Below, piece after piece: positions 26,885 through 35,201 of a DNA stretch of 64,000 nt. A model generated the notes under the pieces. The model was not told the origin of the DNA and searched no databases. It saw nothing but the letters and a program-made list of their open reading frames with translations. A program made the translations under genes and the position numbers. Source of the DNA: Saprospiraceae bacterium. GTDB taxonomy: Bacteria > Bacteroidota > Bacteroidia > Chitinophagales > Saprospiraceae. The stretch spans positions 1 to 64,000 of the forward strand of contig JAJTER010000005.1 of assembly GCA_021299835.1 (NCBI GenBank). Direction: 5' to 3'. Within the stretch, counting starts at the first letter, position 1; each line of letters begins with the position of its first letter.

Positions 26885-26934
26885 GATTTATCTACTGAAG
26901 TGTCGTTTTATTTCTGTTAACGGAAACATAATAC

Positions 26935-26965
26935 TTGAATTTTTCGTTCTGCTTTATTATATTTG
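26935..26965 (+). promoter_or_regulatory. Bacteroidota-type promoter of the arginine operon (TTG-N20-TATATTTG)
   Basis: TTG at 26935-26937 and TATATTTG at 26958-26965; predicted TSS about 26970-26972. Confidence 0.6.
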
Positions 26966-26973
26966 CATCCATT

Positions 26974-27039
26974 ATGAAAAAAACAAGGGAAGTTCAGGTT
27001 ATTTTTCCATGTCGCGTCCGCAACTTGCCTCGCCCCTAA
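26974..27039 (+). CDS. Candidate arginine leader peptide, 21 aa: MKKTREVQVIFPCRVRNLPRP
   Basis: ATG a few nt after the predicted TSS; four Arg codons (AGG, CGC, CGC, CGC), three in the last eight codons; directly precedes arginine biosynthesis genes. Confidence 0.55.
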   Translation: MKKTREVQVIFPCRVRNLPRP

Positions 27040-27044
27040 GGGCG
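27031..27044 (+). promoter_or_regulatory. GC-rich hairpin with the leader stop codon in the loop
   Basis: cgccc-ctaa-gggcg, perfect 5-bp stem, UAA at 27037-27039 in the loop. Confidence 0.5.
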
Positions 27045-27134
27045 TATTATATTAACTTCCACCCCAGGCAGTGTATTTCTGCCCATTCCCTAACCAAGGT
27101 ATTAATACTATTTTTTAAAACTTAATCTCCTGAC

Positions 27135-27716
27135 ATGGATTTAAAGGTTTTAGTGTCTTCGGCAGATCATGTGCAATATGCAGAAAATGTTTGCCTCTTA
27201 ATAGCAGAATCAGCAAAAGCAAGAGGAACAGGTATCGCAGCTCGTAAACCAGAGTATATTCGCGCCAAAATGGAAGCGGGTAATGCAGTAGTTGCTTTTG
27301 ATGGCGACGTGCTGGTAGGTTTCTGTTACGTGGAAATTTGGAGTCATAATAGATATGTTGTTAATTCAGGCCTTGTCGTACATCCGGATTATAGAAAATC
27401 GGGACTTGCCAGAGAAATCAAACGTAAAGTTTTTAATCTTGCCAGAGATAAATTTCCCGAAGCTAAAGTCTTTGGTATCACCACGAGCCTGGCTGTAATG
27501 AAAATTAATACGGAATTGGGCTATAAACCCGTTACTTTTTCCGAACTAACTCAGGATGATGCGTTTTGGGCAGGTTGTAAAAGTTGTCCAAATTATGATA
27601 TTCTGGAAAGAAATGAGAGAAGAATGTGCTTGTGTACCGCTATGTTAGCGCCCTCAAAGGTGGAAGAAGAGCAGATGACGCTCAATTTAACACATCTAAT
27701 CGTCGAAAATAAATGA
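27135..27716 (+). CDS. GNAT N-acyltransferase, probable first enzyme of arginine biosynthesis
   Basis: GLVVHPDYRKSGLAREIKRKV acyl-CoA loop; first gene of the arg operon, overlaps argG. Confidence 0.8.
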   Translation: MDLKVLVSSADHVQYAENVCLLIAESAKARGTGIAARKPEYIRAKMEAGNAVVAFDGDVLVGFCYVEIWSHNRYVVNSGLVVHPDYRKSGLAREIKRKVFNLARDKFPEAKVFGITTSLAVMKINTELGYKPVTFSELTQDDAFWAGCKSCPNYDILERNERRMCLCTAMLAPSKVEEEQMTLNLTHLIVENK

Positions 27717-28921
27717 GTAAAAAAAAGGTCGTTTTAGCCTATAGTGGTGGTTTGGATACTTCTTTCTGTATTCCATGGCTAACAAGAGAAAATAATTGTG
27801 AGGTGCATGCCATTACAGTCAATACCGGCGGATTTACCGCCGATGACGCTGTTCGCTTAGAAGAGAGAGCTTTTCAGTTGGGGGCAGCTTCGTTTAAGAT
27901 AGTAGATGCTCAGCAGGATTTTTATTATCAATGTATTCGATATCTCGTTTTTGGAAATGTATTGAGAAATAATACTTATCCGCTGTCAGTAAGTGCTGAA
28001 AGAATGTTTCAAGCCATTGAAACAGCAAAATATGCCACTGAAATAAACGCTCAGGCGGTCGCTCATGGTTCAACAGGCGCCGGAAATGATCAGGTGCGCT
28101 TTGATATTGCCTTTCAAATTCTGGGTCATGATCTTGAAATCATTACGCCCATTAGGGATATGAAATTGGCAAGGCAAACCGAAATTGATAAATTAATTGC
28201 CTGGGGTTTTAATTGGAATTGGGAAAAGGCCAAATACTCCGTTAATAAAGGTCTCTGGGGTACCAGTGTCGGTGGGGTCGAAACACTAACCTCTCATAAG
28301 GGCTTACCCGAGGAGGCTTATCCCTCTCCGCTAACCGCTTCCAATCCTGTTACTGTCACCTTGCAATTTGCTAAAGGTGAATTGGTTGGCGTCGATGGTA
28401 AGGTTTTTGACGCTCCTCTCGAAGCTATTCATGCCCTGCAAATCATCGCAGAACCTTTTGCTATCGGAAGGGATATTCACGTCGGTGATACCATCATTGG
28501 TATAAAAGGTCGCGTTGGCTTTGAAGCAGCCGCTCCACTTATCATTTTGAAAAGTCATCACCTGCTGGAAAAACATACCCTCACTAAATGGCAGCAATAC
28601 TGGAAGGAACAATTGGCAAATTGGTACGGTATGCTCCTGCATGAAGGTCAGTTTTTAGATCCCGTTATGAGAAATATTGAACACTTCCTCGAAGATACAC
28701 AGTCCCATGTTTCCGGTACCGTAACCCTTACTCTTTACCCTTATCGCTTCGTGCTCGAAGGCATTCATTCCGATTTTGATCTGATGAACCCTGAATTTGG
28801 ACACTATGGTGAAATGAATAAAGGTTGGTCCGGCGAAGATGTAAAGGGCTTTACCAAAATTGCAGGTAATCAGTCAAGGATTTTTTTCGAGGTGCTCTCA
28901 AAACAACAAAAGCTTTCCTAA
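27713..28921 (+). CDS. argG: Argininosuccinate synthase
   Basis: KKVVLAYSGGLDTSFCIPWL, AHGSTGAGNDQVRFD. Confidence 0.97.
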   Translation: MSKKKVVLAYSGGLDTSFCIPWLTRENNCEVHAITVNTGGFTADDAVRLEERAFQLGAASFKIVDAQQDFYYQCIRYLVFGNVLRNNTYPLSVSAERMFQAIETAKYATEINAQAVAHGSTGAGNDQVRFDIAFQILGHDLEIITPIRDMKLARQTEIDKLIAWGFNWNWEKAKYSVNKGLWGTSVGGVETLTSHKGLPEEAYPSPLTASNPVTVTLQFAKGELVGVDGKVFDAPLEAIHALQIIAEPFAIGRDIHVGDTIIGIKGRVGFEAAAPLIILKSHHLLEKHTLTKWQQYWKEQLANWYGMLLHEGQFLDPVMRNIEHFLEDTQSHVSGTVTLTLYPYRFVLEGIHSDFDLMNPEFGHYGEMNKGWSGEDVKGFTKIAGNQSRIFFEVLSKQQKLS

Positions 28922-28924
28922 ATT

Positions 28925-29881
28925 ATGATTAAAGTTGGTGTTATTGGTGCAGGCGGTTATACAGGTGGTGAGTTGTTGCGATTGCTCGCTTTTCATCCTA
29001 AAGTGGTCATTGCCTTTGCACAAAGTAATTCCCAGTCAGGTAAATCAGTAGCTTCCGTTCATGACGATCTCTTTCAACTGAAAGACCTGTATTTTTTATC
29101 CAATCCCCCGCTATTGGCCGACGTCATTTTCTTATGCATGGGGCATGGCAAATCGTCCATATTTATGAAGGAAAATGTGATTCCCAATGGCGTAAAATGT
29201 ATCGATTTGGGAAATGATTTCAGATTGGATTCCTCTTTTATTTACGGTTTACCAGAGCTGAATCATGAACATATTAGAACGGCTGAAAGAATCGCTAATC
29301 CCGGTTGTTTTGCCTCCGCTATTCAACTCGCTTTACTGCCTTTTGCTGAAAATCATCTCCTGAATAATTCCATACATATTCATGCCATTACTGGCTCTAC
29401 CGGTGCCGGTCAGGCGCTCAGTGATACCACCCATTTTAGTTGGCGTTCTTCAAATATTTCGGTTTATAAGGCCTTCGATCATCAACATATTCCAGAAATA
29501 GTAAGAAGCCTCAGGCAATTACAACCCGATTTTAATCAGGATCTGCATTTTATTCCCATGAGAGGTGATTTTACCAGAGGTATACTCGCTTCTATTTACT
29601 TCGAATCAGATGTATCGCAAGCAGATTTGAATGATCTGTTTTCCTCCTATTATAAAAACCAACCCTTCACAAAGGTTACTGATCTTAATCCTCACCTAAA
29701 AATGGTCGTTAACACCAATAATTGTGTGGTTCAGGTAAAAAAACAAGGTAAATGTGTTCATATTATCTCCGTTCTTGATAATTTACTCAAAGGTGCCTCA
29801 GGCCAGGCAGTGCAAAATATGAATCTTATGTTCGGTTATCCTGAAAATGAAGGCCTGAACCTTAAATCTACCGCCTTTTAA
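28925..29881 (+). CDS. argC: N-acyl-gamma-glutamyl-phosphate reductase
   Basis: VGVIGAGGYTGGELLRLL, IANPGCFASAIQLALLP. Confidence 0.95.
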   Translation: MIKVGVIGAGGYTGGELLRLLAFHPKVVIAFAQSNSQSGKSVASVHDDLFQLKDLYFLSNPPLLADVIFLCMGHGKSSIFMKENVIPNGVKCIDLGNDFRLDSSFIYGLPELNHEHIRTAERIANPGCFASAIQLALLPFAENHLLNNSIHIHAITGSTGAGQALSDTTHFSWRSSNISVYKAFDHQHIPEIVRSLRQLQPDFNQDLHFIPMRGDFTRGILASIYFESDVSQADLNDLFSSYYKNQPFTKVTDLNPHLKMVVNTNNCVVQVKKQGKCVHIISVLDNLLKGASGQAVQNMNLMFGYPENEGLNLKSTAF

Positions 29882-29899
29882 ATCCTTTAATTTTTTGAT

Positions 29900-31057
29900 A
29901 TGAAATTATTCGATGTTTATCCTCTCTATGATATTTGCCCGGTAAAAGGTCTTGGATCTTATGTTTGGGATGAAAAAGGAACTAAATATCTCGATTTCTA
30001 TGGCGGTCATGCCGTCATTTCTATCGGTCATTCCCATCCGCATTATATCTCAAAAATTGCCGAACAACTCAATGCCATTGCTTTTTATTCGAATTCTATC
30101 CTAAATCCTTTGCAAAATGAGTTGGCTGAGCTCCTGGGCGATATAAGTGGATGCCACGATTATCATCTGTTTTTATGTAATTCTGGCGCCGAGGCGAATG
30201 AAAATGCTCTGAAAATGGCCTCTTTCGAAAATGGAAGAAAAAAAATCGTCGCTTTTAAAAAGGCTTTCCATGGCAGAACGTCTGCAGCTGTAAATGTAAC
30301 GGATAGTAAAGGTATTCAGGCACCTATAAACAGTACCTTTGAGGTGGTTTATCTGCCGTTAAATGATTTTGACGCGATCGACAATGCGTTTTTAGATAAT
30401 GATGTCGCCGCCGTTATCATCGAGGGCATTCAAGGGATTGGCGGAATTCATATTCCTGACGTCGCTTTCTTACAAAAAATATCAACGCTTTGTCAGGCTT
30501 CAAATACTATACTTATCCTCGATGAAATACAATCGGGTTATGGTAGAAGTGGTTCTTTCTTCGCTTTCCAAAAATCGGGTATTCAACCCGATATCATAAG
30601 TATGGCAAAAGGCATGGGAAATGGTTTTCCTATCGGAGGTATATTGTTACACCCCCGTTTTAAAGCAAAACATGGCCTTTTAGGCACTACCTTTGGTGGA
30701 AGCCACCTGGCTTGCGCCGCTGGGATTGCTGTTCTTGAAGTTATTCGCGATGAACAATTGATGGAAAATGCAGCCGTTTCTGGTCAGTTATTATTAAACG
30801 AATTGAAGAATAGTGCGCTACCCGGTGTTGTTGAGGTGCGTGGTGAGGGTCTCATGATTGGTATCGAATTCGATTATAATACCGCGGCGCTAAGGAAGAA
30901 ATTACTGATGGAAAATCATATTTTTACAGGATCTTCCTCTGACCCGAATACCATACGACTTCTGCCTTCTTTGTCGGTTGGCGAAAATGAAATAGATCAA
31001 TTATTAGACGGATTTAAATCTGTTTTGTATTCTGCCCCCCAATCTGTTCCCGTATGA
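29900..31057 (+). CDS. argD: Acylornithine aminotransferase (class III)
   Basis: YLDFYGGHAVISIGHSHP, LILDEIQSGYGRSGSFFAFQ, SMAKGMGNGFPIGG. Confidence 0.92.
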   Translation: MKLFDVYPLYDICPVKGLGSYVWDEKGTKYLDFYGGHAVISIGHSHPHYISKIAEQLNAIAFYSNSILNPLQNELAELLGDISGCHDYHLFLCNSGAEANENALKMASFENGRKKIVAFKKAFHGRTSAAVNVTDSKGIQAPINSTFEVVYLPLNDFDAIDNAFLDNDVAAVIIEGIQGIGGIHIPDVAFLQKISTLCQASNTILILDEIQSGYGRSGSFFAFQKSGIQPDIISMAKGMGNGFPIGGILLHPRFKAKHGLLGTTFGGSHLACAAGIAVLEVIRDEQLMENAAVSGQLLLNELKNSALPGVVEVRGEGLMIGIEFDYNTAALRKKLLMENHIFTGSSSDPNTIRLLPSLSVGENEIDQLLDGFKSVLYSAPQSVPV

Positions 31058-31995
31058 AGTCATTTATAGCCGCACCAGAGGTCAACGAAATTATTCGATT
31101 ATTGGCTTTGGCAAAAGATATCAAGGGATCACCTGAAAACTATAGACAATTCGGAGTCAATAAAACACTGGTCCTCCTTTTTTTTAATCCCAGTTTGAGA
31201 ACCCGCCTTAGTACAGAAAAAGCTGGCCTTAATCTTGGCATGCAGGTGATTAGCATGAATGCCGACAATGGATGGAAAATTGAGTTCGAGGAAGGTGCTA
31301 TTATGGACGGAAACAGTGCAGAACATGTAAAAGAAGCCGCTGCTGTCGTAAGTCAGTACGCATCTGTCATTGGCATTCGCAGTTTTCCTTCCCTGGTTCA
31401 ACGCGATAAAGATTATCAGGAGGAAGTGATTTCTGCCTTCGTAAAATATGCAACGGTTCCTGTAGTTAGTTTGGAATCAGCTACCCGTCATCCCCTTCAG
31501 TCGTTTGCCGATTTGCTAACGATAGAGGAATTTAAACAAAAAGACAGGCCTAAGGTAGTCCTTTCCTGGGCTCCCCATCCCCGCGCTTTGCCGCAGGCCG
31601 TTCCCAATTCTTTTGTGGAATGGATGAACCGCGCAAACGTAGATTTAGTCGTCACCCATCCTGAAGGGTATCATCTTTCACCCGATTTTATGGGCGATGC
31701 TTATGTTACGACTAACCAAAATGAGGCCTTCGATGGTGCCAATTTTATTTATGCAAAAAACTGGTCCTCATTTGAAAACTATGGCGCTATTCTGTCAAAA
31801 GATCCTTCTTGGACCATCACTGCCGAAAAAATGGCTCTCACTTCTAAGGCAAAATTTATGCACTGCCTTCCCGTTAGAAGAAATGTTATCGTCGCCGACG
31901 AAGTAATCGATGGTCCCGATTCCATCGTTATCGCTCAGGCAAATAATAGAACCTGGGCTGCACAAGCCGTTTTATACGATTTATTAAAAGGTTAA
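31054..31995 (+). CDS. argF': N-acyl(acetyl/succinyl)ornithine carbamoyltransferase
   Basis: FFNPSLRTRLSTEKAG, ATRHPLQSFADL, FMHCLPVRRNVIVADEVID. Confidence 0.9.
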   Translation: MKSFIAAPEVNEIIRLLALAKDIKGSPENYRQFGVNKTLVLLFFNPSLRTRLSTEKAGLNLGMQVISMNADNGWKIEFEEGAIMDGNSAEHVKEAAAVVSQYASVIGIRSFPSLVQRDKDYQEEVISAFVKYATVPVVSLESATRHPLQSFADLLTIEEFKQKDRPKVVLSWAPHPRALPQAVPNSFVEWMNRANVDLVVTHPEGYHLSPDFMGDAYVTTNQNEAFDGANFIYAKNWSSFENYGAILSKDPSWTITAEKMALTSKAKFMHCLPVRRNVIVADEVIDGPDSIVIAQANNRTWAAQAVLYDLLKG

Positions 31996-32007
31996 ACCTC
32001 TTGCCCA

Positions 32008-32781
32008 ATGAAGGAAGTGCTCCATATTCTTAAAATAGGTGGTAATGTATTAAGCAATGACCTTGTCCTGGCCTCGGTTTTAAGCGCATTTTCAGAAAAA
32101 GAGGGAAGAAAAATAATCGTTCACGGAGGAGGCAAAAAAGCAACCGTTCTTGCTGAAAAATTGGGTATTCCCTCCGTTTTTGTTGACGGAAGACGAATTA
32201 CTGATACCGATTCCCTGGAAATTGCCGTGATGACTTATGCAGGATGGTATAATAAAAAAATAGTGGCACATTGTCATTCGATAGGTTTATCCGCGCTCGG
32301 ATTATCCGGGGCAGATGCCAATGCCATTCTTTCGGTAAAGCGACCCGTAAAAGAGGTAGATTTTGGTTGGGTAGGGGATCCGGTAATGGTAAATGTTCAA
32401 ACCTTGTCCCATTTCATGAATATTGATTTGATCCTGGTCTTTTGTGCCGTTACGCACGATGGTAAAGGGCAATTGCTAAATACCAACGCAGATACCATCG
32501 CTTCTACCCTGGCTACCGCTCTTTCCAATATCTATTCGGTAAACCTCACCTATTGTCTGGAATTACCTGGCGTCCTTAAAGATGTTTCTGACCCTAATAC
32601 CGTCATCTCCTCTCTTAATCGTTCCGCTTTCATCGAGGGACGGGAAAAGGGCTATTTTCATGCTGGAATGATTCCAAAATTGGAAAATGCCTTCAATGCC
32701 ATTGAAAATGGTGTGACAAAGGTCGTTATTTGTGGTCCTGATTCTTTTCTTACCAACGGCGGTACTCATATTTGTAAATAA
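32008..32781 (+). CDS. argB: Acetylglutamate kinase-family enzyme
   Basis: IVHGGGKKATVLAEKLGI, NTNADTIASTLATAL, GMIPKLENAFNAIENGV. Confidence 0.93.
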   Translation: MKEVLHILKIGGNVLSNDLVLASVLSAFSEKEGRKIIVHGGGKKATVLAEKLGIPSVFVDGRRITDTDSLEIAVMTYAGWYNKKIVAHCHSIGLSALGLSGADANAILSVKRPVKEVDFGWVGDPVMVNVQTLSHFMNIDLILVFCAVTHDGKGQLLNTNADTIASTLATALSNIYSVNLTYCLELPGVLKDVSDPNTVISSLNRSAFIEGREKGYFHAGMIPKLENAFNAIENGVTKVVICGPDSFLTNGGTHICK

Positions 32782-33860
32782 TGAATAGCTCCAAGGCTGA
32801 TTTGCTTGAAAATGCAGTAAAATGGTTGTCGGAAATCATTCAAATTCCCTCCTTTTCAAAAGAGGAAGATCAGACCGCTCAATGGTTTTTTGATTGCCTT
32901 GAAAATCAGGGAGCTAAGCCATTTCGTTCAGGGAATAATGTTTGGGCTATTTCATCGGTTTGGGACCCAAATAAACCTACGCTCCTACTCAATTCTCATC
33001 ATGATACCGTTAAACCTGTGTCCGGCTGGACTTTTTCTCCCTTTGAAGCAACGAGGGTTGATGATAATATTTTTGGATTAGGTAGTAATGACGCGGGCGC
33101 TTCACTGATATGCCTGCTTTGCACTTTCCTGCAGTTGAGGACTTCAGAACAGTTAGAGGTTAATCTCGTTTTTGCAGCCACGGCGGAAGAAGAAATTTCA
33201 GGAAGTGGGGGCATCGCCTCTATTTTACCCCTGCTACCTCCCATCAACATGGCCATCGTGGGGGAACCCACTACTATGCAGTTGGCCGTGGCAGAAAAAG
33301 GCCTCATGGTGGTCGATGCAATGTCAAAAGGAATATCTGGACATGCAGCAAGAAATGAAGGGGTCAATGCCATCTATGAAGCGATGAAGGATATTGAATC
33401 TATTCGTTCTTTCGCTTTCCCTAAAATTTCTGCCTTCTTAGGGCCCGTTAAATTGTCCGTTACCCAAATAAATGCTGGTACCCAACATAATGTGGTGCCT
33501 GACCAATGTTCTTTTGTCATAGATATTCGAACGAACGAACTTTATACAAATGAGGAGGTATTTGAAATACTGAAACATCAAGTGAAAGCAGATTTGAAGG
33601 CACGTTCCTTCAGACTCAAATCTTCCGGCATTTCCTTAGATCATCCTTTGGTATTGTCTGGGCTGCATTTAAACTTGATTCCTTTTGGATCACCAACCCT
33701 TTCCGACCAGGCTTTGATGACTTTTCCGTCTTTAAAACTGGGCGTAGGTGATTCAGCCCGATCTCATACGGCCGATGAGTTTATTAAAATAAATGAAATA
33801 GAGAATGGCCTCTCTCTTTATCATGCCATCATTACCGGCATTCATATACCTAAAAACTGA
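32781..33860 (+). CDS. argE: M20-family N-acylornithine deacylase
   Basis: LLLNSHHDTVKPVSGWTFSPF, AATAEEEISGSGG, start overlaps the argB stop. Confidence 0.9.
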   Translation: MNSSKADLLENAVKWLSEIIQIPSFSKEEDQTAQWFFDCLENQGAKPFRSGNNVWAISSVWDPNKPTLLLNSHHDTVKPVSGWTFSPFEATRVDDNIFGLGSNDAGASLICLLCTFLQLRTSEQLEVNLVFAATAEEEISGSGGIASILPLLPPINMAIVGEPTTMQLAVAEKGLMVVDAMSKGISGHAARNEGVNAIYEAMKDIESIRSFAFPKISAFLGPVKLSVTQINAGTQHNVVPDQCSFVIDIRTNELYTNEEVFEILKHQVKADLKARSFRLKSSGISLDHPLVLSGLHLNLIPFGSPTLSDQALMTFPSLKLGVGDSARSHTADEFIKINEIENGLSLYHAIITGIHIPKN

Positions 33861-33863
33861 AGG

Positions 33864-35201
33864 ATGAAACTTTGGGAAAAAGACTTCTTAGTTCAACCGC
33901 AAATTGATGCCTTTACCGTAGGAAAGGATAGAGAGATGGATCTGCTTTTGGCAAAATATGACGTTCTTGGCTCTTTAGCTCACATCCAGATGCTGGAATC
34001 TATTCAGCTGATTTCAAAAAATGAATTGGAGGTACTCTCCGCGTCATTGAAAAATATTTATCAGGACATTGAGAAGGGGCTCTTCAAAATGGATGACGAC
34101 GTAGAGGATGTCCATTCTCAAATTGAGTTGTTGCTCACTAAATCTTTGGGCGATATTGGAAAAAAAATACACAGTGGCAGATCAAGGAACGATCAGGTAC
34201 TGGTGGATTTAAGACTTTTCTTTCGCGCTGAATTACAAGAAATAGTGCGTCTGATGGAACTCATTTTTCATGGATTTCAAGAGCAAAGCGAACAACATAA
34301 GGATGTACTAATGCCTGGTTATACCCATTTTCAGGTAGCTATGGTATCTTCTTTTGGTCTTTGGTTTGGAGCTTATGCTGAATCGTTAACTGAAGATTTG
34401 TCTTTACTGGAAAGTGTTTTTAATATCGTCAACCATAATCCCCTTGGTTCTGCCGCAGGATATGGTTCTTCCTTTCCCCTGAACAGAAAAATGACAACGG
34501 AATTGCTGGGTTTTGAAGACCTTAGCTATAATGTGATTCATGCCCAGATGGGAAGAGGTAAATCGGAATTATTTATAGCCTTTGCATTGGCTTCTCTCGC
34601 CACTACCTTAGGTAAATTTTCAATGGATGTCGTGCTTTATTCAAGCCAAAATTATCATTTTCTTACCCTTCCAAAAGAATATACCACAGGCTCAAGTATT
34701 ATGCCGCACAAAAAAAATCCAGACGTATTTGAATTGTTAAGAGGTAAATGTAATCTTTTACAGGCATTGCCGGGGCAAGTTAGCCTGTTGATTAATAATC
34801 TTCCCGCTGGCTATCACCGGGATTTTCAATTATTAAAGGAGGTTATTTTTCCTGCTATTCATAACATGAAGGAATGCCTGGAAATGATTGCTTTTGTTTT
34901 GCCAAAGTTGAAAATTCACGATAATCTAATGGATGATCCTAAATATGCTTATCTATTTACAGTTGAAAAAGTTAATGAGCTCGTTTTAGAGGGGGTTCCA
35001 TTTAGAGATGCCTATAAACAGGTAGGTGAAATGGTGGAGAAAAATGAGTTTGTGCCAGGGAATAAAATTTCTCATGTTCATGAAGGTTCAATCGGACAAC
35101 TTTGTAATAAAGAGATTTTTCAGAAATGGAAGATGATTAAAGATAGATTTCCATTTGGAAAAATCGAAGAAAAGTGTAGCGTCCTTACACGTATTCGCTA
35201 A
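33864..35201 (+). CDS. argH: Argininosuccinate lyase
   Basis: KIHSGRSRNDQVLVDLRLF, TTGSSIMPHKKNPDVFEL. Confidence 0.97.
   Translation: MKLWEKDFLVQPQIDAFTVGKDREMDLLLAKYDVLGSLAHIQMLESIQLISKNELEVLSASLKNIYQDIEKGLFKMDDDVEDVHSQIELLLTKSLGDIGKKIHSGRSRNDQVLVDLRLFFRAELQEIVRLMELIFHGFQEQSEQHKDVLMPGYTHFQVAMVSSFGLWFGAYAESLTEDLSLLESVFNIVNHNPLGSAAGYGSSFPLNRKMTTELLGFEDLSYNVIHAQMGRGKSELFIAFALASLATTLGKFSMDVVLYSSQNYHFLTLPKEYTTGSSIMPHKKNPDVFELLRGKCNLLQALPGQVSLLINNLPAGYHRDFQLLKEVIFPAIHNMKECLEMIAFVLPKLKIHDNLMDDPKYAYLFTVEKVNELVLEGVPFRDAYKQVGEMVEKNEFVPGNKISHVHEGSIGQLCNKEIFQKWKMIKDRFPFGKIEEKCSVLTRIR

Follow-up and report, generated by a model that had tools for sequence, protein, structure and literature searches.

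The window, that is the whole stretch of 64,000 nucleotides that was analysed, comes from a Saprospiraceae genome and contains an arginine biosynthesis operon. Its gene order, given as GNAT-argG-C-D-F'-B-E-H in a first-pass annotation made from the letters alone, was confirmed by NCBIfam and Pfam profiles, which also identify argF' as the N-acetylornithine carbamoyltransferase type and argE as an argE/dapE-type deacylase. The genes from argG to argH are tightly packed or overlapping, and the GNAT acetyltransferase at the head of the operon is a possible short N-acetylglutamate synthase. In one other locus GNAT and ArgG are fused in a single 582-residue frame (L024:1450-3195), and long frames of this kind also occur in L182, L196 and L198; such a fusion suggests a functional link between GNAT and argininosuccinate synthase. 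The intergenic gap ahead of the operon, read from the sequence, is indeed 250 nt long (26885-27134), as the annotation had it. The features of this region are as follows, in window coordinates.

26935..26965, + strand: Bacteroidota-type promoter, with TTG at 26935-26937, N20, and TATATTTG at 26958-26965
26974..27039, + strand: leader mini-ORF MKKTREVQVIFPCRVRNLPRP-UAA, 21 codons, 4 of them Arg, read from the sequence and kept in relatives
26988..26994, + strand: strand A, GGAAGTT, pairing with 27054-27060 over 7 bp in the lowest-energy fold of 26984-27064
27031..27044, + strand: P1 hairpin, CGCCC-CTAA-GGGCG, predicted fold -8.5 kcal/mol, z -2.6
27045..27134, + strand: C-rich, G-poor stretch, possible Rho-loading region, 23 C and 8 G in 90 nt
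27054..27060, + strand: strand Z, AACTTCC, partner of strand A (26988-26994)
27067..27083, + strand: P3 hairpin, GGCAG-TGTATTT-CTGCC, -7.5 kcal/mol for 27060-27090, z -2.7
27135..27716, + strand: GNAT acetyltransferase, first gene of the operon (Pfam PF00583/PF13508)
27713..35201, + strand: argG, argC, argD, argF', argB, argE/dapE, argH (NCBIfam/Pfam)

The promoter (TTG-N20-TATATTTG) lies ahead of the 21-codon ORF exactly as first described, and 8 nt separate its end from the ATG at 26974. Transcription is predicted to start at about 26968-26972, which would leave the mini-ORF nearly leaderless. Its four Arg codons, AGG (codon 5) and CGC (codons 14, 16 and 20), also match the earlier description, with three CGC among the last eight codons before a UAA that ends at 27039, and a further 95 nt lead from there to the GNAT start. 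The Arg codons are few and none are adjacent: no stretch of 8 residues holds more than 3 Arg, and these occur in the contexts R-V-R and P-R-P, where most relatives have RRR runs instead. The leader as a whole folds no better than its shuffled versions (z -0.02), and a search of the whole window against Rfam returned no family match at the gathering score. In two sister genomes (L003 and L047) the peptide is identical to that of the window, and in a third (L046) it reads MKKIKEVQVIFTRRVRNLPRP, again with 4 Arg. The window leader is a weak, partly degenerate member of its family, with four Arg and an unclear second hairpin pair; by itself it is modest evidence, and it is the relatives that carry the case.

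Conservation of the arginine codons

I compared the window with 25 other genomes of its family, the Saprospiraceae, all of which possess the GNAT gene. About 20 of the 25 have a short ORF at the same place that ends in an Arg run, typically ...RRRxxRRRP-stop, for example MKKAHLHRISFCSPINRIRFRRRPLGRL, MAKKVYYFNLPSAFRRRRIPRRRP and MKIRTTSRRTRQRRRRRRS. For the phylum, loci were gathered with a GNAT profile, from a set of named loci and a draw of 258 phylum genomes; once redundant entries and those with less than 60 nt ahead of GNAT had been removed, 179 remained. Of these 179 homologous loci, 93 have a mini-ORF that opens with ATG and holds 4 or more Arg within 8 residues, against about 2 in shuffled sequences (0-5 in each of 20 dinucleotide-shuffled sets), and the runner-up amino acid under the same run criterion, Ala, reaches 17 of 179. 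The window copy itself falls under this threshold, so the count is conservative; by the same criterion, around half of the GNAT loci are without an Arg leader.

The Arg-run leaders span Saprospiraceae, Balneolaceae, Flavobacteriaceae and Sphingobacteriaceae, and include MQSIVAHSIDFLPVFRIPRRR in Balneolaceae and MNLQSLNKPAIRATFAPAAAALVSTVFLCCPPRRRPYMPRV in Mucilaginibacter. Peptides of different clades show no relationship apart from this run. Tenacibaculum has two tandem leaders, MHTNNKTNQITVRRRPNGRR and MQTNNHSFLPYSFSILNDSITRVRRFFPRPLGL; two successive Arg-rich leader ORFs with differing downstream RNA precede one operon in L124, L176, L177 and L195, at about -300 and at -115 to -230 relative to GNAT.

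The leaders draw on all six Arg codons (CGC 163, CGT 108, CGG 104, CGA 82, AGG 69, AGA 50), and these exchange synonymously, AGR to CGN included, which indicates that the amino acid is conserved and not one RNA sequence. Arg positions peak at 2-3 and at 6-9 codons before the stop. On the sequences compared, this pattern is what selection on arginine codons, not on a peptide or an RNA motif, leaves behind. The refuting condition set in the first-pass annotation, loss of the mini-ORF or its Arg codons in relatives, is not borne out: the Arg run persists across the phylum as the other residues change around it.

The position of the mini-ORF is likewise retained. In nearly all Saprospiraceae leaders the promoter motif stands at a fixed distance before the leader ATG, and the nearly leaderless layout is thus conserved. 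Of 100 leaders, 47 have TAnnTTTG no more than 25 nt before their in-frame ATG, mostly at distances of 4-8 nt; the same distance test applied to the GNAT start codon gives 1 of 100.

To examine the specificity of the element, a covariance model (R1) representing the Saprospiraceae P1-P3 region was searched in 199 whole genomes of the family. It gave 43 matches in 42 of the 199, essentially one per genome, and located the window element at its exact position (27024-27095, E 4e-6), the window sequence being in the training set. All 30 of the matches that were fetched immediately precede GNAT-argG, in the same orientation. Among the matches inspected, the RNA element serves the GNAT-argG operon only; carA in the window's own genome, checked for an Arg leader, has none.

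RNA structure around and beyond the leader stop

In the window, the loop of P1 holds the stop codon and its 5' arm the last Arg codon. The Saprospiraceae form, CGCCC-YTAN-GGGGCG, is built from the last Arg codon, Pro and the stop, and was found in 29 aligned leaders of the family. A hairpin across the leader stop occurs in 57 of 100 leaders phylum-wide and folds modestly better than shuffles (mean z -0.58); with that count it was dropped as a universal feature. The most structured stretch over 99-100 leaders lies 8-58 nt past the stop (mean z -1.38).

In Saprospiraceae, P1 is followed by a spacer and a conserved CATATNANCC, and then by two hairpins, P2 and P3, which are mutually exclusive since they have one strand in common. 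P2 reads, for example, UUACCC/GGGUAG in relatives of the window, and P3 GGUAGG/CCUACC, with the variants GGUAAG/CUUACC, GCGGGAAA/UUUCCCGC, GGUGGGGA/UUUCCCACC and GGCAGGC/GCCUGCC. The window P3 is the equivalent of this covarying hairpin, and P2, clear in most relatives, is degenerate in the window. I assessed covariation by swapping strands between sequences in 5000 permutations. With shared ancestry left in the test, the swapped strands matched the true pairing in 0 of 5000 permutations for P2 and likewise for P3, and in 2729 of 5000 for a control segment pair. The covarying hairpins that the first-pass annotation proposed to look for in relatives are found in P2 and P3. RNAalifold on a MAFFT alignment of the leaders returned essentially no consensus structure. 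Because loop lengths vary, this approach and whole-leader folding were uninformative; pairwise stem analysis with strand-swap permutation succeeded where both gave nothing.

Some Saprospiraceae leaders (e.g. L008, L036 and L056) contain a CATATYANCC-like sequence twice, early in the mini-ORF, where its reading frame varies, and a second time some 10 nt beyond P1. A search for a sequence with which it might pair found none.

A longer-range pairing joins the start of the ORF to RNA downstream of it. The predicted pairing of strands A and Z in the window can enclose the Arg codons, and both strands are invariant in the sister genomes. Balneolaceae and the first Flavobacteriaceae leader show covariation in the corresponding pairing (0 of 5000 permutations, ancestry again uncorrected), with clear compensatory changes in both. 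It was accepted for the first Flavobacteriaceae leader (z -2.98) and, by permutation, for Balneolaceae, and rejected as a general feature for Saprospiraceae (mean z -0.43), Chitinophagaceae-like and Sphingobacteriaceae leaders.

Flavobacteriaceae have a hairpin of their own, with a covarying stem and an invariant loop, AGGUGAGUCC (AGGUGUGUCC in L195, one change). It is present in L149, L153, L161, L162, L169, L138, L173, L176, L177, L124 and L094, about 57-68 nt before GNAT and about 20-25 nt past the Arg leader, and its loop resembles the complement of the 3' end of 16S rRNA. Assignment to Flavo-1 or another Rfam family was rejected, as 11 related Flavobacteriaceae loci gave no Rfam match up to E=1. 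The conserved loop is an RNA motif in a clear genomic context.

Termination signals and the arginine repressor

An attenuator of the his/trp type is expected to end in a G+C hairpin followed by a U-tract. Between the end of the leader and GNAT, a hairpin with a U-rich tail was found in 11 of 99 loci, several of them marginal, and no intrinsic terminator was found after P3 in the leader loci or in the window. The absence of an evident intrinsic terminator implies that read-through here probably departs from the textbook mechanism. The RNA after the leader contains more C than G in 96 of 99 leader-bearing loci (composition of this stretch C 0.247, G 0.141), compared with 57 of 99 just upstream of the promoter, and the window's genome possesses a rho gene. 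Judged by composition and gene content, C-rich RNA after the leader together with rho is compatible with Rho-dependent attenuation of the tnaC and speF type, although C-richness is a weak predictor of Rho action.

Accounts of how bacteria control arginine synthesis usually centre on the repressor ArgR. A profile search for ArgR (PF02863) found it in 0 of 61 genomes of the family, the window's own included, and in 8 of 14 control genomes, a Bacteroides among these. In the draw of 258 phylum genomes, GNAT is present in 108, ArgR in 97 and both in only 3, one of which is a marginal match containing a stop codon; this pattern is confounded with phylogeny and is taken as supporting evidence. In the other two genomes that have both, L231 and L232, ArgR stands directly upstream of GNAT, where other genomes carry the leader. 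A large part of the phylum seems to be without ArgR and to have a conserved Arg-codon leader at the head of the operon instead. This matters, as these bacteria appear to do without the usual arginine repressor, and the Arg-codon leader probably lets a stalled ribosome turn synthesis on under arginine shortage.

Proposed mechanism, alternatives and known systems

Very probably, the region is a ribosome-mediated attenuator: its leader would sense charged arginyl-tRNA, and the entire arginine operon would be under its control. The first-pass annotation had proposed ribosome-mediated arginine attenuation, and this part of its reading stands on the conserved Arg run, the synonymous exchanges, the covariation and the linkage to the operon; the textbook intrinsic terminator of such a system is not evident. 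The mini-ORF, being nearly leaderless, would be translated at once as the RNA emerges. With plentiful arginine, the ribosome would pass the Arg codons, reach the stop within P1 and depart, and the downstream RNA would then favour premature termination before GNAT, the off state. If Arg-tRNA is scarce, the ribosome would wait on the Arg codons 2-3 or 6-9 before the stop, hinder the normal formation of P1, stay near RNA polymerase and bias the choice between P2 and P3, such that transcription would run on into the operon. Stalling at the Arg codons would be the sensor, and P1, P2 and P3 the decision element. I infer the direction of this response, and which hairpin would represent the off state. 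The 5' strand of P2/P3 lies about 17-20 nt past the leader stop, and ribosome geometry by itself does not account for the way in which a ribosome halted at the Arg codons would select one of the two hairpins. That the termination step would be of the Rho type I regard as an evenly balanced proposition.

Classical intrinsic attenuation would dispense with Rho: P1 or another hairpin would act as a weak terminator or pause site, and a stalled ribosome would mask its 5' arm, which holds the Arg codons, and let transcription read through. A simple scan rates P1 plus TATTATATTA as terminator-like, and hairpins across the stop are as frequent as reported above; the his leader of the same genome, described below, ends in a real U-tract terminator. 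P1 in the window is nevertheless the only candidate from that scan, its tail weak and mixed and its stem of 5 bp, and in most relatives the tail is mixed A/T or includes C/G. The scarcity of U-rich tails over the loci and the modest advantage of P1 over shuffles also count against this explanation, which I consider unlikely. Pausing at the Arg codons could instead act post-transcriptionally, altering the folding or decay of the mRNA or the translation of GNAT, as is partly the case for the closest tested Arg-codon leaders, speF orf34 (PMC6386406) and rbfL (PMC13009471). The GNAT start, however, is about 30-150 nt downstream of the conserved hairpins, no conserved pairing with it turned up, and it would be unusual for eight genes to be controlled solely at the start codon of the first; such a leader is quite improbable here.

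Free arginine might also be sensed by the nascent chain inside the ribosome tunnel, in the style of TnaC or the fungal AAP, with arrest at ...RP-stop. Many leaders do finish in R-R-R-P-stop, and TnaC likewise ends in Arg-Pro-stop. Yet from clade to clade nothing of the peptide but the Arg run stays the same, in some leaders (L011, L012 and L014) the last residue is Arg or Val or the frame overruns the usual stop, and the Pro codon belongs to the stem of P1. A biosynthetic operon would moreover need the opposite response to an arrest at high arginine, unless that arrest triggered repression, and I give this reading very little weight. The last alternative is a mini-ORF that arose by chance in the regulatory gap and has no function. 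Taken by itself, the window copy is unremarkable, with 4 Arg in 21 codons and a leader that folds like shuffled sequence, but conservation far above shuffles, exclusive linkage to the operon and covariation already refute this alternative for the leader family, and its probability is negligible.

The attenuator proposed here has its nearest tested counterpart in the speF leader of Salmonella and E. coli, where a long leader carries, close to its 5' end, the short Arg-codon ORF orf34 (speFL), an arrangement like that in the window. Ribosome pausing at these codons under low arginine alters folding; a hairpin downstream of the orf34 stop forms only when ribosomes pause there, and Rho termination is combined with RNase G-sensitive alternative folds (PMC6386406). 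The speF leader, however, controls ornithine decarboxylase, whereas the leader described here precedes an arginine synthesis operon. Its peptide is a conserved gammaproteobacterial one (DUF2618) with two mid-peptide Arg codons, in contrast to the C-terminal Arg run found here, outside which the peptide is not conserved. The DUF2618 core, HIRR..HIM, was sought in the leader peptides and is absent, and these leaders precede GNAT-argG, not speF. In Staphylococcus aureus, the rbfL leader peptide also senses arginine through Arg codons and blocks the downstream ribosome binding site of a biofilm regulator; it differs in having two rare Arg codons, in its target and in repressing at low arginine (PMC13009471).

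With Yanofsky-type his and trp leaders the region shares a mini-ORF that immediately precedes the operon and is rich in end-product codons, and mutually exclusive hairpins; unlike them it has no U-tract terminator in the expected place, starts nearly leaderless and senses arginine. In the Bacteroidetes, Bacteroid-trp RNA is linked to trp genes. It is listed as a probable cis-regulatory RNA of this group (RF01692; Weinberg 2010, PMC2864571), and neither this family, T-box nor any other in Rfam matches the window or the 11 Flavobacteriaceae loci. From the same phylum, the main text of a study on F. psychrophilum (PMC9723704) makes a general statement on leader peptides before amino-acid operons, the same proposed principle; that main text names no arginine leader, and overlap in individual operons is conceivable. 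In the main texts of the open-access literature, my search met no description of a ribosome-mediated attenuator for an arginine biosynthesis operon; Arg-sensing leaders appear there for other genes only (speF and rbfL), and Rfam has no model for an Arg leader. The first-pass annotation likewise named no characterised arginine attenuator of this kind in Bacteroidota.

A wider reading is plausible but tentative. It would see in these leaders a phylum-wide class of terminator-less arginine attenuators, in which a nearly leaderless Arg-rich ORF and a P2/P3 switch would control the access of Rho and replace ArgR in most Bacteroidota. Individual clades would have rebuilt the downstream RNA (A-Z pairing, tandem leaders, the AGGUGAGUCC-loop hairpin) and kept only the Arg codons.

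The window's own genome also encodes a His-rich leader, MINIAFHIGHHHYMLLCSVG, upstream of hisG and just after a tRNA gene (L233:1211-1273, contig C41). It is followed by a strong terminator hairpin, GAGGTTTACCCACTCGTGGTTAAACCTC, with a T10 tail, and has the appearance of a classical his attenuator, suggesting that related leader attenuation is at home in this organism. A his leader with a terminator beside an Arg leader with none evident offers a direct test of whether Rho acts in leader attenuation in Bacteroidota.
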